Positions 44,858 through 55,293 of a stretch of 64,000 bases of DNA are shown piece after piece. The translations under genes and the position numbers were made by a program. This DNA is from Methanospirillum lacunae (GTDB taxonomy: Archaea; Halobacteriota; Methanomicrobia; Methanomicrobiales; Methanospirillaceae): NCBI RefSeq assembly GCF_003173355.1, contig NZ_QGMY01000009.1, positions 62,001 through 126,000 on the forward strand, read 5' to 3'. The first letter of the stretch is position 1; each line of letters starts with the position of its first letter. Under the pieces are notes generated by a model. That model searched no databases. It was not told the origin of the DNA and saw only the letters and a list, made by a program, of their open reading frames with translations.

Positions 44858-45439
44858 ATGCAACGAGTAGATACCCGGATTCTGATCCTGATACTCTGTC
44901 TTATGGCAGTCATATTATCAGCCGGCTGCACAAATCCTGACACCGGGAACCAGACAACTTCAAAAACAACAACACCATCTACTCATGTAGCCCAATCAGG
45001 TAATGAGTCATCATGGATGACCGTGCCAATAACTGATGTGATGACTGGAAAGCAGACAACCATTGAAGAACTGGCAGAAGAAGGGAAACCGGTAATAATT
45101 CATTCATTTGCAGTCTGGTGTCCGGCCTGTTCAATACAACTCCGTGAAACTGCAAAACTCCTCAAAGAAAACCCGGGAGCATACACAGTTCTTGGAATAG
45201 ATCTTGATTCACGTGAAAATACTAATATGATCAAGAGTCACATTGAGAAAAACCAGTTTGTTGGAATGTACATTGCTGCTCCTATTGAACTAACAAAGGG
45301 CTTAGTCCAGACAGTAGGACCAAAAGTTGTACAGTCACTTCCACAGACTCTGATAATATGCAATAAAAAAATCACGTATGTGGGAGATGGTGCATTCCCT
45401 GAAGAAAAACTCAAATTAATCCTGTCAGAACTCTGTTAA
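44858..45439 (+). CDS. TlpA-like thioredoxin lipoprotein
   Basis: A 193-residue exported protein. The N-terminal hydrophobic segment ends in lipobox LSAGC at about residue 27, followed by a Thr/Ser-rich linker. The thioredoxin site is SFAVWCPACSIQLRE (CxxC), with the cis-Pro in SLPQTLI. Likely attached to the outside of the membrane, acting in thiol redox. No operon partner: tRNA-Cys lies upstream and a converging operon downstream. Confidence 0.87.
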   Translation: MQRVDTRILILILCLMAVILSAGCTNPDTGNQTTSKTTTPSTHVAQSGNESSWMTVPITDVMTGKQTTIEELAEEGKPVIIHSFAVWCPACSIQLRETAKLLKENPGAYTVLGIDLDSRENTNMIKSHIEKNQFVGMYIAAPIELTKGLVQTVGPKVVQSLPQTLIICNKKITYVGDGAFPEEKLKLILSELC

Positions 45440-45538: not shown

Positions 45539-45811
45539 CTATCCACCCGATACGGGGGGAAAGAGTTTTATTTCATCACCATCATGAACCGGTGTTGAAA
45601 GACCATCAAGATCTTTAAACCCTGTCCCATTCACCAGGATATTCACGTACCGCTTCAATTCTCCATCCTGAAACAGAAGGGCAGAAAGACCCGGATACCG
45701 ACTCGTCAATTCAGTTATAATATCCTGTACAGTCTTGACATTGTCAAGTTCAACGTCTTTTACACCGGCTGTTTCCCGGTAATTTGCAAACAGAATTACT
45801 TTAAGAGTCAT
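45539..45811 (-). CDS. MoaD/ThiS-family ubiquitin-like sulfur carrier
   Basis: A 90-residue beta-grasp protein ending PPVSGG. The C-terminal Gly-Gly is the site adenylated and thiolated by ThiF/MoeB enzymes. VILFANYRETAGVKDVEL and FPPVSGG match MoaD. It is the last gene of an operon, 27 bases after a ThiF-like gene, its obvious activating partner. It may serve molybdopterin synthesis, tRNA thiolation or protein modification (SAMP). Confidence 0.9.
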   Translation of the reverse strand: MTLKVILFANYRETAGVKDVELDNVKTVQDIITELTSRYPGLSALLFQDGELKRYVNILVNGTGFKDLDGLSTPVHDGDEIKLFPPVSGG

Positions 45812-45838
45812 AATTATCGCCTATGTATCTTCTCTTAT

Positions 45839-46576
45839 CTATTTCAGATGTGAGCATGCAGGGCAGTGGGGATTTCGGACGATTGGAATTTCATGAAATT
45901 CCAGGTACTCTCCATCATATATCACCATACGGTTTAAAGCGAGTTGACCCACTCCAGTAATGGCCTTGATAGCTTCAGTCACCTGCAGCGTTCCAAGCAC
46001 ACCTGGCGTTGCTCCTAGTACCGGAAAGACTTCTTTTGGAGGAGCTTCGGGTACAAGACATTCAAGACACGGGGTTTTTCCAGGAATAATTGTTGTTAGC
46101 CGGCCTTCCAGACCCCAAACAGAAGCATGGATAAAGGGAATATTGTGATGAATTGCTGCTTTATTGAGAAGATACCTGGTTGGATAGTTATCTAGGGCAT
46201 CAATGATGATATCAGCGCCCTTCGTGATATCCAGGTAATTATCCTCATCTATCTTCTCCTGAAGAGCTGTTACTTTAAGAGAGGGATTAATGCCTGCAAG
46301 TTTTACACTGGCGCTCTTGACTTTATACTGGTCAACATTCTCATCCCAGTGTAATATCTGGCGGTTCAGGTTAGACAGGTCAACAACATCCATGTCCACA
46401 ATCACAAGATGACCAACTCCTGCTACTGCAAGATACGTTGCAACCGGACTTCCAAGCCCGCCACATCCTGCAATAAACACAGTGGCATCTTTCAGTTTCT
46501 CCTGCCCGGCATCACCAAATCCACGAATCAGAATTTGGCGATTATATCGCTTTTGATCGTACGGTGTCAATGTCAT
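45839..46576 (-). CDS. ThiF/MoeB-family adenylyltransferase, copy 2
   Basis: A 245-residue paralogue of 152-904. The nucleotide loop is IAGCGGLGSPVATYL near 35, and the segment DLSNLNRQILHW follows. The zinc-binding pairs are CLECL near 170 and CPAC near 238. It lies in one operon with a MoaD-like protein downstream and with a binding protein, an Fe-S protein, a G3E GTPase and an ABC ATPase upstream. Adenylates the MoaD-like partner, by inference. Confidence 0.9.
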   Translation of the reverse strand: MTLTPYDQKRYNRQILIRGFGDAGQEKLKDATVFIAGCGGLGSPVATYLAVAGVGHLVIVDMDVVDLSNLNRQILHWDENVDQYKVKSASVKLAGINPSLKVTALQEKIDEDNYLDITKGADIIIDALDNYPTRYLLNKAAIHHNIPFIHASVWGLEGRLTTIIPGKTPCLECLVPEAPPKEVFPVLGATPGVLGTLQVTEAIKAITGVGQLALNRMVIYDGEYLEFHEIPIVRNPHCPACSHLK

Positions 46577-46648
46577 ACAAACAAGTCAGTACTATGAGTT
46601 CCGTGATGATCCATAAAATCCCGGTGATCCGGGCAAATGTTGACATCA

Positions 46649-47599
46649 TCACCACCTCTGATATTCATAAATTCCGTCCCGATAATGGTGCCCTGCCAGA
46701 TGAATCGCATTCACCGCTGTCAGATCAAAGATCTCATCCGGAGAGATGCAATGTTCAGTTGAGCCAAGGGTATAGAGTGTGTGAGAAAACTCATCTGTAG
46801 AGTTGAGATATTCCAAAGGAAGGGCAGCACAATAATGCGGAGATATCCTATATGCTTCTTCTACAAAGGCTTTATCAACAAATCCACAGGTATCTGCAAC
46901 AATTTTCGCACATTCCCCTGGATTTTTGCGTATCATCTGGCATGCATCTTCATGTGCCCTTATAAATGCTGGAACAATGTTTCCCCGGCTTATCAGATCA
47001 TCGGTTGCAACAATCCCATAACTTGGGTTGAACGGCCATATGTCCTCGGCAGGAACAACAATATGTGCAGAGCCATACCGTCGAGCTGCAACCGCAAGAG
47101 CAGGAGTTCCTGCTGCTGCTGCTATCTCCCCATCTTCAAGAGCATCATGAAGAAAATCAGCCCATGCATAATTTTTTACCTGGACTGTGTTTTTTCCATA
47201 TCTGGAAAGAAGATTTCTCACAATGATATCATGGATAGAACCTTTTGGAGGGGTTCCGATGCATTTTCCTGCAAACTGATCGAGAAAACCATTCATGCCA
47301 GAAAATGAACTGAGAGGGAGTATAGAAGGACCCGCAATGATCACTGTGCCTTCAATATGACCTCCGGCAACGCATCGTGCCTGAAGTCCCCGGTCCAGAC
47401 CTATAATAAAAGGAGGAAGACCAATATACGCAATATCAAGGTTTCCTTTCTCCATTGCTCTGATTATATCAGGGCCTGATGGAAAAAGAGTCCACTCGGC
47501 TTGAATCTGATTTTTTTCCAGCAGATCAGTGCCCATTAAAATGAAAGCCGTATGGTATACTGTTGAAAGATGACCAATACGGATTCGATGAAGTGTCAT
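46649..47599 (-). CDS. periplasmic-binding-protein-like protein without signal peptide (SsuA/NMT1 type)
   Basis: A 316-residue type II binding protein. It begins MTLHRIRIGHLSTVYHTA, with no leader. MEKGNLDIAYIGLPPFIIG and DALEDGEIAAAAGTPALAVA are the two ligand-binding region motifs of the sulfonate/thiamine precursor group (SsuA/NMT1). Lack of export suggests a cytoplasmic role as enzyme or sensor. It lies 9 bases after the Fe-S protein gene. C-terminal extension has several His (HLAGHHYRDG). Confidence 0.82.
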   Translation of the reverse strand: MTLHRIRIGHLSTVYHTAFILMGTDLLEKNQIQAEWTLFPSGPDIIRAMEKGNLDIAYIGLPPFIIGLDRGLQARCVAGGHIEGTVIIAGPSILPLSSFSGMNGFLDQFAGKCIGTPPKGSIHDIIVRNLLSRYGKNTVQVKNYAWADFLHDALEDGEIAAAAGTPALAVAARRYGSAHIVVPAEDIWPFNPSYGIVATDDLISRGNIVPAFIRAHEDACQMIRKNPGECAKIVADTCGFVDKAFVEEAYRISPHYCAALPLEYLNSTDEFSHTLYTLGSTEHCISPDEIFDLTAVNAIHLAGHHYRDGIYEYQRW

Positions 47600-47608
47600 A
47601 AGAATATA

Positions 47609-48223
47609 TCAGAGAATCCTGATATCCTCCACACGGACGTGAATACCGTCCTTTTTCTGAAGAACCATGTTCACAAGAGCCGTGTGTGCGAGATCGATCA
47701 TACAATAACCAGGAAGGAAATACTGCCTGATTCCCAGAATCGGTGGTCGCTTTATCGGCTCTGCAATACCTTCAAAGGCATGGACATGGTATGCCTGAAC
47801 ATCATGTGGCTCTTCTGACCGAGCTGCCAGGGGACCAACTGTGTGACATTCAAGAACACCGGTTACCGGATTTGCAGACAGGACCCTGAGTGCATGATAC
47901 AGCGGACAACCAGGACCTGCCGGCCTTCCGGTAATTAAATCTCCAGCCTTGATATCCCATTTCTCGACAAGGTCTGCTCTGAATGGCACCACAAATTTCC
48001 GTGCAGATGGTTCACCGGGAAAAGCCTTCAATACAAAATCATACTCTTTCCCTGTGACATCAACTCCGGAATAGGAGACTGTTCTGGCAGTATGTTCTGA
48101 TGCAGTCACTGAATACGGGCAGTCTTCCTTTGATCGCTCACCAGTTATGAGAGCCTTTGAAAATTCGACACAAGTGGAGAAACCACATGCACCACAATCC
48201 CTGCCTGGAGGTTGCCAGACCAT
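47609..48223 (-). CDS. [4Fe-4S] protein with extended C-terminal domain
   Basis: A 204-residue protein. The N-terminal DCGACGFSTCVEFSKALI and a later CPYS form a C-x2-C-x4-C-x16-C [4Fe-4S] motif of the kind found in RnfB and the corrinoid Fe-S protein family. The remaining 150 residues form a separate domain with GDLITGRPAGPGCPLYHALR and a C-terminal segment of unknown fold. It lies 5 bases after the GTPase gene. Role in the six-gene set unknown. Confidence 0.78.
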   Translation of the reverse strand: MVWQPPGRDCGACGFSTCVEFSKALITGERSKEDCPYSVTASEHTARTVSYSGVDVTGKEYDFVLKAFPGEPSARKFVVPFRADLVEKWDIKAGDLITGRPAGPGCPLYHALRVLSANPVTGVLECHTVGPLAARSEEPHDVQAYHVHAFEGIAEPIKRPPILGIRQYFLPGYCMIDLAHTALVNMVLQKKDGIHVRVEDIRIL

Positions 48224-48228
48224 CTTGT

Positions 48229-48936
48229 TCAGTCACCCCGGTAGATAGGTTCTGCATTGTCAAGGGTTCTGATGATTCCAAAGTGATTTTTCCATCCAAT
48301 CTCTTTCTTACCGATGCAGACTGTACAGACTCCAAGTGGCGAAGTTCCACGGAGTGTAACAGTTCCCGCATCCTCGACATCAGGGAATGATCTGATCTTG
48401 TTTATCAGGAACCGCAGACCTGATCCCTGCAGTGCATTTGTCTCAATTATCTCAATTTCTGGAGAAGCAGAGAGAATACCCTCACGGTACACTTCCTTTT
48501 CAGCCTGTGAAACAAGATCAACTTTGGTGACTACCGCAACATCAGCAAGAGCAATCATCGGAGCCATCTTGAGTGGTGCCTTGCTTCCTGATACTGCCGA
48601 GAGAACCACTACACCAAATGACTGGGTAGTATATGGTGTGCAACGCAGGCACAGTCCTGCACTCTCGACAATTAACAGGTCTGACTCCACAGCCACAGCC
48701 CAGGCAAGGGCATCGGCAAGCACGAGGATACCCATGTGATCAGGACAGACATCCCCAGAGTAGGTTTTACGGGTTGGAATGCCAAACTCTTCCCGGAGTT
48801 CTTCATCCTCAAAAGCTCTCACAACATCAATCTTCAGGTATGACGGCTTGAATTCTCCAGAGAGTTCCTTTATAACCTGCCTGATAACTGCAGTTTTTCC
48901 AACGCTCGGTGGTCCTGCGACAATAAGAAGTTTCAT
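48229..48936 (-). CDS. G3E-family (CobW/HypB/UreG-like) GTPase
   Basis: A 235-residue P-loop GTPase. Walker A is AGPPSVGKTAVIRQV at 7-21; VESAGLCLRC near 88-98 has a metal-binding CxxC-like pair and TKVDLV near 145 the base-specificity motif. The C-terminal PLGVCTVCIGKKEIG adds a second CxxC. G3E proteins deliver nickel, cobalt or zinc to enzymes. The start overlaps the end of the ABC ATPase (ATGA). Confidence 0.85.
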   Translation of the reverse strand: MKLLIVAGPPSVGKTAVIRQVIKELSGEFKPSYLKIDVVRAFEDEELREEFGIPTRKTYSGDVCPDHMGILVLADALAWAVAVESDLLIVESAGLCLRCTPYTTQSFGVVVLSAVSGSKAPLKMAPMIALADVAVVTKVDLVSQAEKEVYREGILSASPEIEIIETNALQGSGLRFLINKIRSFPDVEDAGTVTLRGTSPLGVCTVCIGKKEIGWKNHFGIIRTLDNAEPIYRGD

Positions 48937-49736
48937 GCTGTCACCTTTGCTTTTGAAACGATCACCGGTGAATCAGAAAACCGCTCTCCGTTCCTGAGTT
49001 TTTCTCTGATATCAGAGACATATTGATCAATATCTGAAAGATTTCTGACAAGAGCCTGTTCGGATCCTGCCGGGTAAATAACCTCACGAACTGCCCCATT
49101 TTGCATGACAATTCTCCGGTCAGTGCTCAGAGCAAGCAGAGGATCATGTGTAACCAGGATTACAGCACGACGATGTTCTTTGATCCGGCTGATAACCCGT
49201 TCCTTGGCAATACCTGCATTCTCAACTTCGTCCAGAAGAAGAATGGGAGCGTCACCAATACGAATGGCATCTGCGATAAAGAGCGAACGGGTCTGACCTC
49301 CTGACAGGGCCGTCATTCGGTACTGCGGGAGAATCTTCTCACCGGTGAACTCATTTGCAAGTTCAATGGTTTCAAGAAGAACTGACTGATCTGCAATTCC
49401 CCTGGCCTTCATGTGAACAGCGAGAAAATCGACAACTTTCAGATCTGCTATACACCGGTTATTCTGAGTAATCATAACAATCGGCTTTTTTGCAGGATTT
49501 CGAACCATCTCTTCCGGTGGTTCAGCACCATTAATTCTGATAGTTCTTCGGGTGACTGTATCTCCCTGCGCCAGGACTTCAATGTCATTAATGAAAGCGG
49601 ATTTGCCCGATCCGGTTGATCCAACAATGGATACAGAGTCACCAGGCTGAATATCAATCCGGTCAAAAAATTCCTCCTGGCCATCTCTGCTCCGGCCTGG
49701 CAGGATTGTGATGATATAATTCTGGAGAGATTCCAT
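48933..49736 (-). CDS. ABC-type ATPase, likely soluble
   Basis: A 267-residue ABC ATPase. Walker A is IVGSTGSGKSAFINDI near 38-53, the signature is LSGGQTRSLFIADAI near 144, Walker B is PILLLDEVENAG near 165 and the H-loop Thr-His-Asp is near 198. The Q-loop reads ITQNNRC. No permease gene is in or near the operon. It is the first gene of the six-gene operon, with direct repeats upstream (49781-49834). Confidence 0.85.
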   Translation of the reverse strand: MESLQNYIITILPGRSRDGQEEFFDRIDIQPGDSVSIVGSTGSGKSAFINDIEVLAQGDTVTRRTIRINGAEPPEEMVRNPAKKPIVMITQNNRCIADLKVVDFLAVHMKARGIADQSVLLETIELANEFTGEKILPQYRMTALSGGQTRSLFIADAIRIGDAPILLLDEVENAGIAKERVISRIKEHRRAVILVTHDPLLALSTDRRIVMQNGAVREVIYPAGSEQALVRNLSDIDQYVSDIREKLRNGERFSDSPVIVSKAKVTA

Positions 49737-49919: not shown

Positions 49920-50732
49920 TTAAACGGGAGTCACAGCCTTGACTATCATTATCAGGGCCATTAGTCCCACCGAGACACCTAGCATCCATCTGATCGTCAC
50001 GGGGGAAAAATAGGGAGATAACCTAACACCGATTGCGGCACCTAAAAAGACTCCAATTGCAGTACTAAAGAGAAAAGGAAGACTCACGTGACCAAGACAA
50101 AGACTGGTTGCAGCAGCTCCTGATGAGGTTATTATGATAGATGCAAGGGAGATGATGACCGCCTCATGGATCTGAATTTTTCTGGTAATCAGTGCAGGAA
50201 CGAAGATTATCCCTCCTGAAATCCCGGTTAAACCACTAACCAGTCCCCCAAGACATCCAATAGAATACAGAAAGCGATTTGTGATACACTTCTTTCGAAC
50301 ATTTTTTTCTGATTCCTGATGCCGATTACTTGACAAAATCTTCAACCAGACATATGTACCTTCATTCCAGAGCGTAAGTCTGAATGCCATGATCAGAAGA
50401 AATAACCCAAATATACCAGTTAATGCCCATCCTTGTAAAAATTGAACACTATATGAACTCAAAATAGATGCCGGAAGAGAAAATATAATTATTCGAAAAA
50501 TGATTGAAAGATGCTCCTTTACTTTATCAAACTGAAAAAGAGTTGCAGATAGTGTGGTACATATTGTAGCTGTAATACTAGTTCCAACAGCGATTTCTGG
50601 AGTAAGGCTAAAAACCAGCGTATACATCGGAACGAGGATAAACCCGCCACCAAGACCGATGAGTACAGATAGAATTCCCACAAATAGTGACCCGATTCCA
50701 GCAAGAATAAGATCTGGTGAAAGATATATCAT
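49920..50732 (-). CDS. TSUP (TauE/SafE) family permease
   Basis: A 270-residue membrane protein with about eight segments. The two halves have the family glycine motifs, GIGSLFVGILSVLIGLGGGF and GGLVSGLTGISGGIIFVPAL. TSUP proteins move sulfite, sulfonates or related sulfur compounds. It may supply sulfur substrates given the neighbouring sulfur-handling genes, but this is inference. Not co-directional overlap with the operon: a 183-base gap separates them. Confidence 0.87.
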   Translation of the reverse strand: MIYLSPDLILAGIGSLFVGILSVLIGLGGGFILVPMYTLVFSLTPEIAVGTSITATICTTLSATLFQFDKVKEHLSIIFRIIIFSLPASILSSYSVQFLQGWALTGIFGLFLLIMAFRLTLWNEGTYVWLKILSSNRHQESEKNVRKKCITNRFLYSIGCLGGLVSGLTGISGGIIFVPALITRKIQIHEAVIISLASIIITSSGAAATSLCLGHVSLPFLFSTAIGVFLGAAIGVRLSPYFSPVTIRWMLGVSVGLMALIMIVKAVTPV

Positions 50733-52589: not shown

Positions 52590-52892
52590 TTACTTCTTTT
52601 CAATTAATGCCAGAATATGACCAGCAGTCTTAAAATTCGGTCGTTCTTCTTTTTGTACAATCTGGTAAAATTCACAATTCAGACAGTTACCAAGTTTTTG
52701 AGCATGGGTACCCTGTACCTTCCCCCCACATAACGTTCCGGTGATTGCCCAGCACGCTCGACCTCCTTGTGAACCACTGTTCACTCCATCAACCCGCGAC
52801 TCAACAGTAGCAGGACAAACACCTAGTTCTTTAACCTTCGCGCCCCCAGGCTGACGACCACATTTCTTAAATTCCCAACAATTTATTTTCAT
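52590..52892 (-). CDS. two-CW domain protein, copy 1
   Basis: A 100-residue cysteine-rich protein. It has two related Cys-Trp segments, NCWEFKKCGRQPGG and RACWAITGTLCGG, each with later cysteines (GVCPA, GNCLNCEF), probably a metal- or cluster-binding fold. Function is unknown. A close copy lies 166 bases upstream (53059-53367). Confidence 0.78.
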   Translation of the reverse strand: MKINCWEFKKCGRQPGGAKVKELGVCPATVESRVDGVNSGSQGGRACWAITGTLCGGKVQGTHAQKLGNCLNCEFYQIVQKEERPNFKTAGHILALIEKK

Positions 52893-53058: not shown

Positions 53059-53367
53059 CTATTCTTCATCTCTAATGAGGGATAGAATATAGCCGGCAGT
53101 CTTAAAATTCGGTCTCTCTTCTTTTTGTACAATCTGGTAGAAATCGCAATTCAGACAGTTACCCATTTTGGATGCATGGGTGCCCTGTACCTTCCCCCCA
53201 CAAAACGTTCCTGTAATTGCCCAACAGGAGCGGCCACCGTTTAATCCGCCGTTAACCCTGTCAGTACGTGATTCCACCGCAGCAGGGCATACACCAAGAT
53301 CCTTAACTTTCTCTCCGCCGGGCTGACGACCACACTTCTTAAATTCCCAACAGTTTTGTTTACTCAT
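53059..53367 (-). CDS. two-CW domain protein, copy 2
   Basis: A 102-residue near-duplicate of the preceding gene, with NCWEFKKCGRQPGGEKVKDL and RSCWAITGTFCGGKVQGTH, all eight cysteines conserved. The pair clearly arose by tandem duplication. Each has its own upstream region, so they may be separately expressed. Function unknown. Confidence 0.78.
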   Translation of the reverse strand: MSKQNCWEFKKCGRQPGGEKVKDLGVCPAAVESRTDRVNGGLNGGRSCWAITGTFCGGKVQGTHASKMGNCLNCDFYQIVQKEERPNFKTAGYILSLIRDEE

Positions 53368-54291: not shown

Positions 54292-55293
54292 TTAGAGATC
54301 AAGGTCAGGAATGAGATCGCATCCTGTACATGGAAGACACATAGTCCTCGAATGAAGGGGAGAAAGCCCGTGAGCCCCGAGAATCTTCTTGGAAGAAAGG
54401 GCCAGGTGATGCAGACGTTCTGCAGTAGGCCGGGCCGCTCCTGGAAGGGGATAATCAGGATTTACTGATATCGCTCTGAGCACAGGGATTACTCCAATTG
54501 CGGCGAGAGTCTCAACTCCTGAAAGTACTGTTTCATCAGATTCTCCAAGCCCGATAATCATATTAGAACTAACACGGTTTTTTCCAAAGAGCGGGGCAGC
54601 ATGTTTGAGCTCTTTGATCACCTGATCAAGTTTAAGATCAGGGCAATAGCGGGAGAAGAGATCGCGGTCCATCGTCTCAACATTAAATTTTACCTCATGA
54701 GCACCAGCAGCATAAAGTAGATCAGAACTTCCTGATGTCGGATATACAGAAACCCCAATCGGCACATCGTATTCTCTGACAAGATCTTCCACAAGGGCAG
54801 TCATCCGATCAAGTTCTTTCTCAGGTGTTTCGGTAACACCACCTGTGAGTGAGATCGCATGAAGATCGCCAGAGAGGTATACCTGGTCAATCATGGAGAG
54901 AACCCGTTCCGGACTTTTTACGGGACCATTCAAGCGAGGAACCGGACAAAATGCACAATGATAGGTACACTGCTCTGAAACCGTTATGTATGCCTGCTTC
55001 GGACAATGAAACCCAACTGGTTCCAGGCTACCTTCTGCCAAAATCTCTCCATTTCTTTCAATAACAACACCATCTTTCTCTTTCCTTATATGAAGTGGGC
55101 TATCATTGCGAATAGAGAGTCTGACTCTTCGTTTCCCGTCAGTGAAAAAGACAGATCTGCCGCCTGCTCCAGGACCTGCTGTTGATCTCCCTACATATTC
55201 TTCAGTCTGGAGATCTGTATCAACGGTAGCATGACCAACACTGATAAGCACTGCCTTATCCCGGGAAGTTAATTCGATTGTAATATATATCAC
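54292..55293 (-). CDS. radical SAM protein (biotin synthase/HydE-like architecture)
   Basis: A 333-residue radical SAM enzyme. The cluster motif is SEQCTYHCAFCPVPR (CxxxCxxC) near residue 110-120. An N-terminal domain of about 95 residues precedes it. The barrel has GGVTETPEKELDRM and VKFNVETMDRDLFSRYCPDL. A C-terminal CLPCTGCD could bind a second cluster. The two methanogen-specific genes DUF1894 and DUF1890 lie just upstream on the same strand. Substrate unknown. Confidence 0.88.
   Translation of the reverse strand: MIYITIELTSRDKAVLISVGHATVDTDLQTEEYVGRSTAGPGAGGRSVFFTDGKRRVRLSIRNDSPLHIRKEKDGVVIERNGEILAEGSLEPVGFHCPKQAYITVSEQCTYHCAFCPVPRLNGPVKSPERVLSMIDQVYLSGDLHAISLTGGVTETPEKELDRMTALVEDLVREYDVPIGVSVYPTSGSSDLLYAAGAHEVKFNVETMDRDLFSRYCPDLKLDQVIKELKHAAPLFGKNRVSSNMIIGLGESDETVLSGVETLAAIGVIPVLRAISVNPDYPLPGAARPTAERLHHLALSSKKILGAHGLSPLHSRTMCLPCTGCDLIPDLDL

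Follow-up and report, generated by a model that had tools for sequence, protein, structure and literature searches.

The window analysed here is a stretch of 64,000 nucleotides from Methanospirillum lacunae (contig C9 of the 3.74-Mb genome), and this work concerns a unit of six genes that it carries at 45539-49736, all on the minus strand. The unit is made up of two modules: a triad of ABC ATPase, GTPase and Fe-S protein, and a protein with the fold of sulfonate-binding proteins, here called SBP, accompanied by a ThiF-type E1 enzyme and a MoaD-like sulfur carrier. We propose that the unit is probably a second module for the biosynthesis of coenzyme M (CoM), with SBP most likely making CoM from sulfoacetaldehyde. 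CoM is a sulfur cofactor without which neither methane formation nor the anaerobic oxidation of methane is possible. That SBP acts somewhere in the CoM pathway is very likely; that it is the terminal CoM synthase is our favoured, less secure, assignment.

For the wider family the balance tips slightly towards a second, unrelated class of CoM synthases. Its members would be cytosolic metallo- or persulfide enzymes on a sulfonate-binding fold, fed by MoaD thiocarboxylate in some lineages. They would replace MMP16 in Methanoregula, Methanocella-type methanogens, Methanoperedens, Archaeoglobi and other archaea, and would complete the cysteate synthase-ComDE route to CoM in Nitrospirota. The computed basis comprises gene content, the absence of signal peptides as judged by eye, fold, residue conservation, co-occurrence, mutual replacement with MMP16 and partner-specific clades of the triad; from these we infer the reaction, its sulfur donor and metal, and the electron path.

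Distribution of SBP and MMP16

In M. acetivorans, according to PMC12068725, CoM is made mainly by MMP16, with L-ASST reported as its backup; MMP16 mutants grow when given sulfide, and the last step of CoM synthesis, attributed to MMP16 only recently, is described there as incompletely resolved. The published MMP16 deletion strain of M. acetivorans is a CoM auxotroph when sulfide is absent, and for the M. jannaschii MMP16 homologue measurement of CoM by LC-MS in E. coli fed sulfoacetaldehyde is reported. A role for SBP in CoM synthesis was not described in the open-access literature searched, which yielded only MMP16 papers and reviews and included PMC4683180, PMC6286981 and PMC12713407. SBP would share with MMP16/ComF (COG1900, TIGR03287) the reaction and the genomic slot beside cysteate synthase and ComDE; it differs in not belonging to COG1900 and in having a type II periplasmic-binding-protein fold.

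Presence of the genes was scored in even draws of genomes, which are not independent lineages, and weaker transporter-type SBPs were excluded from the scoring. The sample of the order comprised 150 genomes, where SBP was scored at E<=1e-112 with a wide gap below (next match 2.5e-20). Cysteate synthase was over threshold in 87 genomes and MMP16 in 86, and 10 had close SBP homologues. Seven genomes carry cysteate synthase without an over-threshold MMP16, and SBP is present in six of them; the seventh (G135, 59% complete) has a truncated MMP16 match. Among the 80 genomes with both cysteate synthase and MMP16 only 3 have SBP, against 6/7 without MMP16 (Fisher p 1.1e-6, kinship ignored). Six genomes have MMP16 without cysteate synthase.

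Six relatives (G017, G085, G093, G097, G113, G143) share an operon with the order SBP, helix-turn-helix (HTH) regulator, then divergently ABC-GTPase-FeS, cysteate synthase and ComDE, with no MMP16; in L043 and in L048 one of these open reading frames is unlabelled. The best match to the MMP16 model in these six genomes is an L-ASST-like homologue at about 160 bits. Both states are found within genus g4, where G140 has MMP16 without SBP, and G017, G085, G093, G097 and G113 have SBP without MMP16. A divergent MMP16-like protein (275-290 bits, below cut-off) was seen in G087 (locus L115) and G091, and the neighbour of the L115 gene is the HTH regulator that elsewhere stands next to the CoM operon.

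In the phylum (294 genomes, SBP scored at E<=1e-60) ComDE was over threshold in 150 genomes, MMP16 in 125 and SBP in 48. ComDE without MMP16 occurs in 31 genomes, including three with MMP16 fragments (341, 353, 385) that were set aside from the contingency. SBP is present in 19 of the remaining 28 (six family codes), and when this set is taken by completeness, in 16/16 genomes at least 94% complete and 19/20 at least 90% complete.

Nitrospirota were sampled with 198 genomes and the same SBP threshold of E<=1e-60. SBP was found in 22, over-cut-off ComDE in 21 and both in 20 (p 4e-24, again ignoring kinship). At 20 of the 21 ComDE loci (L195-L215) the cysteate synthase gene is an immediate neighbour of ComDE; the remaining locus is cut by a contig end. 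The SBP gene adjoins the cysteate synthase-ComDE pair in L195, L227 and L228. No match covering the COG1900 domain was found in 13 SBP-containing Nitrospirota genomes. These bacteria have an archaeal-type route to sulfoacetaldehyde, and SBP is the one candidate seen in them for the final step to CoM.

In GTDB genomes 74 named SBP loci were detected, spanning Methanoregula, Methanocella, Methanoperedens, ANME-2, Methanococcoides/Methanolobus, Methanothrix, Methanobacteriaceae, Archaeoglobi, Hydrothermarchaeum, Hecatella, Asgard archaea, Nitrospirae and Deltaproteobacteria. This set was found with two short peptide patterns, which favours close relatives. Of its genomes, 48 were tested for ComD and MMP16, with ComD over threshold in 40 and MMP16 in 13. 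Cysteate synthase, ComDE and SBP are consecutive and co-directional in Hydrothermarchaeum (L159), Archaeoglobaceae (L169), Mnemosynella (L186) and Geoglobus (L188, also L189), the cysteate synthases of L188 and L189 being divergent (L188 251 bits against a cut-off of 324.9). Methanoperedens nitroreducens (G154) has SBP and the cysteate synthase-ComDE pair but no COG1900 match. In Mnemosynella (L186, L238) the cysteate synthase-ComDE-SBP row is directly followed by a complete SsuABC-like importer, possibly for uptake of CoM or a sulfonate beside its synthesis. A PP-loop ATPase that by eye resembles LarE lies near SBP in L129, L130, L132 and L155. An origin from phages or mobile elements was considered and rejected, as none of 11 pattern matches in viral contigs was confirmed as an SBP relative.

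Several observations weigh against the reading proposed here for the unit and for SBP. The window itself lacks cysteate synthase and ComDE, and the Methanoregula genomes with SBP and without MMP16 keep L-ASST, the reported backup. Nine phylum genomes with ComDE and without MMP16 have no SBP (75-91% complete), and 7 of the 48 SBP-containing phylum genomes (008, 239, 252, 276, 304, 376, 415), some of them near-complete, have no over-cut-off ComDE, as is the case for 8 of the 48 named SBP genomes. The missing COG1900 match in G154 conflicts with the Methanoperedens paper (PMC4683180), according to which ComDEF is encoded. SBP and MMP16 also occur together, in the window genome and in 22 of 119 phylum genomes with ComDE and MMP16, so that SBP is not a simple substitute in those genomes. 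As the window genome has the MMP16 system too, SBP would be a second system here, perhaps for different sulfur or metal conditions. Finally, MoaD is not near SBP in 63/74 loci, and most SBP loci lack the triad, so that neither can be obligatory for SBP.

Location, fold and conserved residues of SBP

The sequence-only reading considered a classic importer unlikely and suggested a cytoplasmic pathway, and both views are borne out. The SBP N-terminus has no strong hydrophobicity in the hydropathy profile, and neither an export signal nor a lipobox was seen when the N-termini of the window SBP and its relatives were inspected by eye; in the same kind of comparison, database relatives start at about the beginning of the mature fold. 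There is no permease in the unit. A dedicated permease in orthologous loci, which would have spoken for an importer, was searched for with a profile from a single BPD_transp_1 protein. In the 74 SBP loci an ABC permease within 2 kb of SBP was found only once (L186), where it is part of a complete importer having its own second SBP. An importer with a missing permease was rejected on the N-termini without visible export signal together with the permease count.

SBP has the type II binding-protein fold. The best fold match of its structure model (pLDDT 87) is SsuA (3e4r, Z 28.8, root mean square deviation 3.0 over 282 residues), followed by the cytosolic regulatory domain of CmpC/NrtC (9uak, Z 27.8), THI5 (Z 26.8), MqnD (23.4) and DszB (19.5). 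SsuA and TauA are the closest in fold, but SBP differs from them by the lack of a visible signal peptide and of a permease partner and by a conserved Cys/His/Glu set. With THI5, MqnD and DszB it shares the fold and a cytosolic location and would share biosynthetic or C-S chemistry, but not membership at the sequence level. Family matches of SBP are limited to NMT1_2/NMT1 and SsuA_fam, the latter under that model's cut-off, and none was obtained to PF01837 or TIGR03287.

An alignment of 83 SBPs was made from 10 sequences of set A1 and 73 loci. Invariant where aligned are Tyr15, His16, Trp36, Tyr58, Cys76, His81, Glu83, His123, Asp124, Tyr194, His216, Tyr256, His305 and Tyr306. The closest solved structure by sequence profile is a binding protein of S. 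aureus, zinc-bound according to its title (3un6, E 7.5e-8). In the profile alignment its columns hold the same residues as SBP His16, His81, Glu83 and His123; the zinc ligands of 3un6 were not seen. The invariant set and the 3un6 columns make this part of SBP look like an active or metal site and not like a plain transport pocket. No lysine is found among the positions conserved at 85% or more in the 83 sequences, so no invariant pyridoxal phosphate lysine is seen. The metal motif of THI5 is not apparent to the eye in the SBP sequence.

Gene unit and triad

All six reading frames are open and start with ATG (Table 1). ABC ATPase and GTPase genes overlap by 4 bp, and the following spacings are 5 bp (GTPase-FeS), 9 bp (FeS-SBP), 72 bp (SBP-ThiF) and 27 bp (ThiF-MoaD). 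The TauE/SafE gene, 183 bp upstream of the unit and on the same strand, does not encode an ABC permease; it is a possible but unproven member. The thioredoxin-like gene adjoins the unit on the opposite strand.

Table 1. Genes of the unit and neighbouring genes in the window
Feature	Position	Strand	Length (aa)	Family match
ABC ATPase, soluble, without permease, triad gene 1	48933..49736	-	267	PF00005 (ABC_tran) 1.7e-13
HypB-like G3E GTPase, triad gene 2	48229..48936	-	235	PF02492 (cobW) 8.8e-10; best NCBIfam match HypB 4e-17, under the HypB model cut-off
Fe-S protein, N-terminal 4Fe-4S domain, triad gene 3	47609..48223	-	204	PF04060 2.1e-11
SBP, cytosolic sulfonate-binding-protein fold, proposed CoM synthase	46649..47599	-	316	NMT1_2 1.3e-11; SsuA_fam 8.5e-27
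ThiF/MoeB-type E1 adenylyltransferase, two CxxC pairs	45839..46576	-	245	PF00899 5.4e-75
MoaD/SAMP1-like sulfur carrier, C-terminal Gly-Gly	45539..45811	-	90	PF02597 (ThiS/MoaD) 8.1e-19; SAMP1 87.9 bits, over cut-off
TauE/SafE sulfite-exporter-family membrane protein, upstream of the unit	49920..50732	-		PF01925 1.2e-40
Thioredoxin/TlpA-like protein, N-terminal lipoprotein-like signal	44858-45439	+		
Small Cys-rich protein, paralogous tandem pair, first	52590-52892	-	100	
Small Cys-rich protein, paralogous tandem pair, second	53059-53367	-	102	
Radical SAM protein	54292-55293	-		MSMEG_0568/LipS2-like, below cut-offs

These frames, spacings and domain assignments agree with the earlier description of six overlapping or nearly touching genes, and the family matches of ThiF/MoaD and of the HypB-like GTPase fit the sulfur-carrier and metal-GTPase chemistry it had suggested. 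Its guess that the ligand could be CoM or a sulfonate is likewise upheld. The metal-sulfur cofactor it had put forward is not supported, the evidence pointing to an organosulfur cofactor, CoM. Its view that no such system had been described stands for the six-gene set in the open-access literature searched but not for the triad. According to the Fig 2 legend of PMC12068725 (2025), CoM genes often have neighbours that encode an ATPase, a Ni2+-binding GTPase and a COG2000 Fe-S protein, with the role given as unknown; the triad module is thus already known as a CoM-gene neighbour.

The window has the same three genes in the same order as that triad. ABC-GTPase-FeS was complete and in order in the window and in 36 of 37 fetched triad-type loci (L038, L042-L077), the exception being L076 with a broken GTPase and no ABC match; the arrangement is thus more than a chance one. 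In the order, FeS matches at E<=7.4e-9 occur in 89/150 genomes (96 at E<=0.001, seven of which cover only the short Fe-S motif). The next genes in most triad loci are MMP16 (TIGR03287), cysteate synthase (TIGR03844) and ComDE. This is also the case for the second triad copy of the window genome (L038, contig C2; 58/67/47% identity to the window copy), which adjoins MMP16 (531 bits), cysteate synthase (613 bits) and ComDE (240/202 bits). The window copy differs in that no CoM-biosynthesis gene is adjacent, the over-threshold cysteate synthase and MMP16 of the genome being on contig C2, and in belonging to a separate SBP-linked clade; the SBP-linked triads of the six close relatives do adjoin CoM genes.

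In a tree of the joined triad proteins the SBP-linked clade has 8 rows (100/100) and a clade linked to PKD proteins has 4 (100/99), the remaining 25 being of the MMP16 type (L059 is scored as such though its MMP16 sits elsewhere in the genome). The partner type changes on this tree no more often than the minimum. G000 and G025 each carry one SBP-linked and one MMP16-type triad, and G085 carries an SBP-linked and a PKD-linked one. With clades separated by partner, the triad seems to be tuned to its partner. A triad exclusive to SBP is ruled out, as MMP16 operons and the third clade also use it. In this third clade (L057, L068, L071, L074) the triad adjoins secreted PKD-type proteins, and neither cysteate synthase nor MMP16 is over threshold in G064 and G125.

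Conserved in 37 sequences are the Walker and LSGGQ regions of the ABC ATPase and the CxxC pairs of the GTPase (ESAGLCLRC and VCTxC), and Cys10, 13, 18, 35, 106 and 174 of the Fe-S protein are invariant in 27 sequences. The N-terminal 4Fe-4S domain of the latter resembles the corrinoid/Fe-S protein CFeSP (2ycl, Z 5.8 over 44 residues). Its C-terminal beta domain (residues 61-204) gave no clear solved match with VIA-align (best Z <4), which does not establish a new fold. The CxxC pairs and the CFeSP-like domain suggest that the triad may carry out metal loading or ATP-driven reduction; we put the odds that it is a metal or electron partner somewhat below even. Two more units of a GTPase and a permease-less ABC ATPase occur on contig C8 of the window genome (L039 7823-10353, and L039 19078-19941 with L040 1-1850), one with a DUF364/DUF4213 'heavy-metal chelation' protein and the other with an SBP_bac_6 protein without evident signal.

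Sulfur supply, alternative functions and implications

A MoaD with C-terminal Gly-Gly adjacent to a ThiF-family E1, as in the window, is the arrangement of the ThiS/MoaD and ThiF/MoeB thiocarboxylate carriers, with the difference that the pair accompanies SBP and not MoaE or ThiG. It could instead serve molybdopterin synthesis and stand beside SBP by accident, which we consider less likely than not. ThiF-MoaD-MoaE is found near the SBP operon in relatives (L044, L046, L048), the window ThiF is sister in the tree to the molybdenum-cofactor ThiFs of these relatives, and the MoaDs of G025 (L047) and L121 lie inside the molybdenum-cofactor clade. However, no MoaE match lies beside the window pair among the annotated reading frames, and the window MoaD falls outside the molybdenum-cofactor MoaD clade of its relatives (100/99). 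It is closest (51%) to the MoaD of Methanocella L131, where the gene order is NifS, NifU_N protein, SBP, MoaD. A Gly-Gly-ending MoaD moreover lies within 1.5 kb of SBP in 11/74 loci, including Methanosarcinaceae, Methanobacteriaceae and Asgard archaea. The trees and the patchy neighbourhood make a dedicated MoaD/ThiF donor plausible in the window genome, not in general, and the chances that this pair would be the sulfur donor to SBP are close to even. Supposed cysteate synthases beside MoaD were discarded, being threonine synthases by NCBIfam in L145 and L155 and weak matches only in L136 and L140.

SBP itself might act in an earlier sulfur step, binding and handing over sulfite for cysteate synthase or helping to make it, any excess being removed by TauE. 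This would agree with the TauE/SafE neighbours seen in the window, L121 and L124, with CysD/CysN/CysH/sulfite-reductase-like genes (by eye) adjoining SBP in Methanococcoides/Methanolobus loci and with the SsuA-like fold. Yet 97 of 119 phylum genomes with ComDE and MMP16 have no SBP, so it is not needed for sulfite supply, and its presence where MMP16 is missing would be left unexplained; we find this role improbable. A sensing role in the cytosol, with CoM, sulfoacetaldehyde or another sulfonate as the signal and the pathway or the ABC ATPase as the regulated target, in the manner of the CmpC/NrtC domains, would account for the match to that domain, the adjacent ABC ATPase and the HTH regulator next to SBP in relatives. 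Most SBP loci have no neighbouring triad ATPase, however, the strict Cys/His/Glu conservation across phyla looks catalytic, and a sensor is not expected precisely where MMP16 was lost, which leaves little room for this explanation. We give as little weight to another thiol product (e.g. coenzyme B mercaptoheptanoate or homocysteine) or a partnership with a radical SAM sulfur-inserting enzyme, where the link to ComDE would reflect a shared sulfur supply. Homologues of the window radical SAM protein (44-50% identical) do lie about 6 kb or less from SBP in L108, L129, L130 and L132, threonine synthase is near SBP in L145 and L155, and the seven phylum genomes with SBP and no ComDE would fit. Against this stand the near-complete overlap of SBP and ComDE in Nitrospirota, the cysteate synthase-ComDE-SBP operons and the 13 SBP-containing Nitrospirota genomes without COG1900, whereas methanogens with L-ASST keep SBP.

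If SBP is the terminal CoM synthase, the sulfonate end of sulfoacetaldehyde may be held in the SsuA-like cleft, where the invariant Cys76 with His16, His81, Glu83 and His123 would position sulfur and/or a metal at the aldehyde. The sulfur would be delivered, at least in this genome, on the C-terminus of MoaD activated by ThiF, and the triad would load the metal or give low-potential electrons to its paired terminal enzyme, MMP16 or SBP.

A non-orthologous synthase of this kind would account for those archaea with methyl-coenzyme M reductase (MCR) that produce sulfoacetaldehyde yet have no MMP16, and it would add a class of enzymes built on the fold of transport proteins. The orphan triad would gain a role open to testing, and Nitrospirota bacteria would be predicted to contain CoM or a related thiol.

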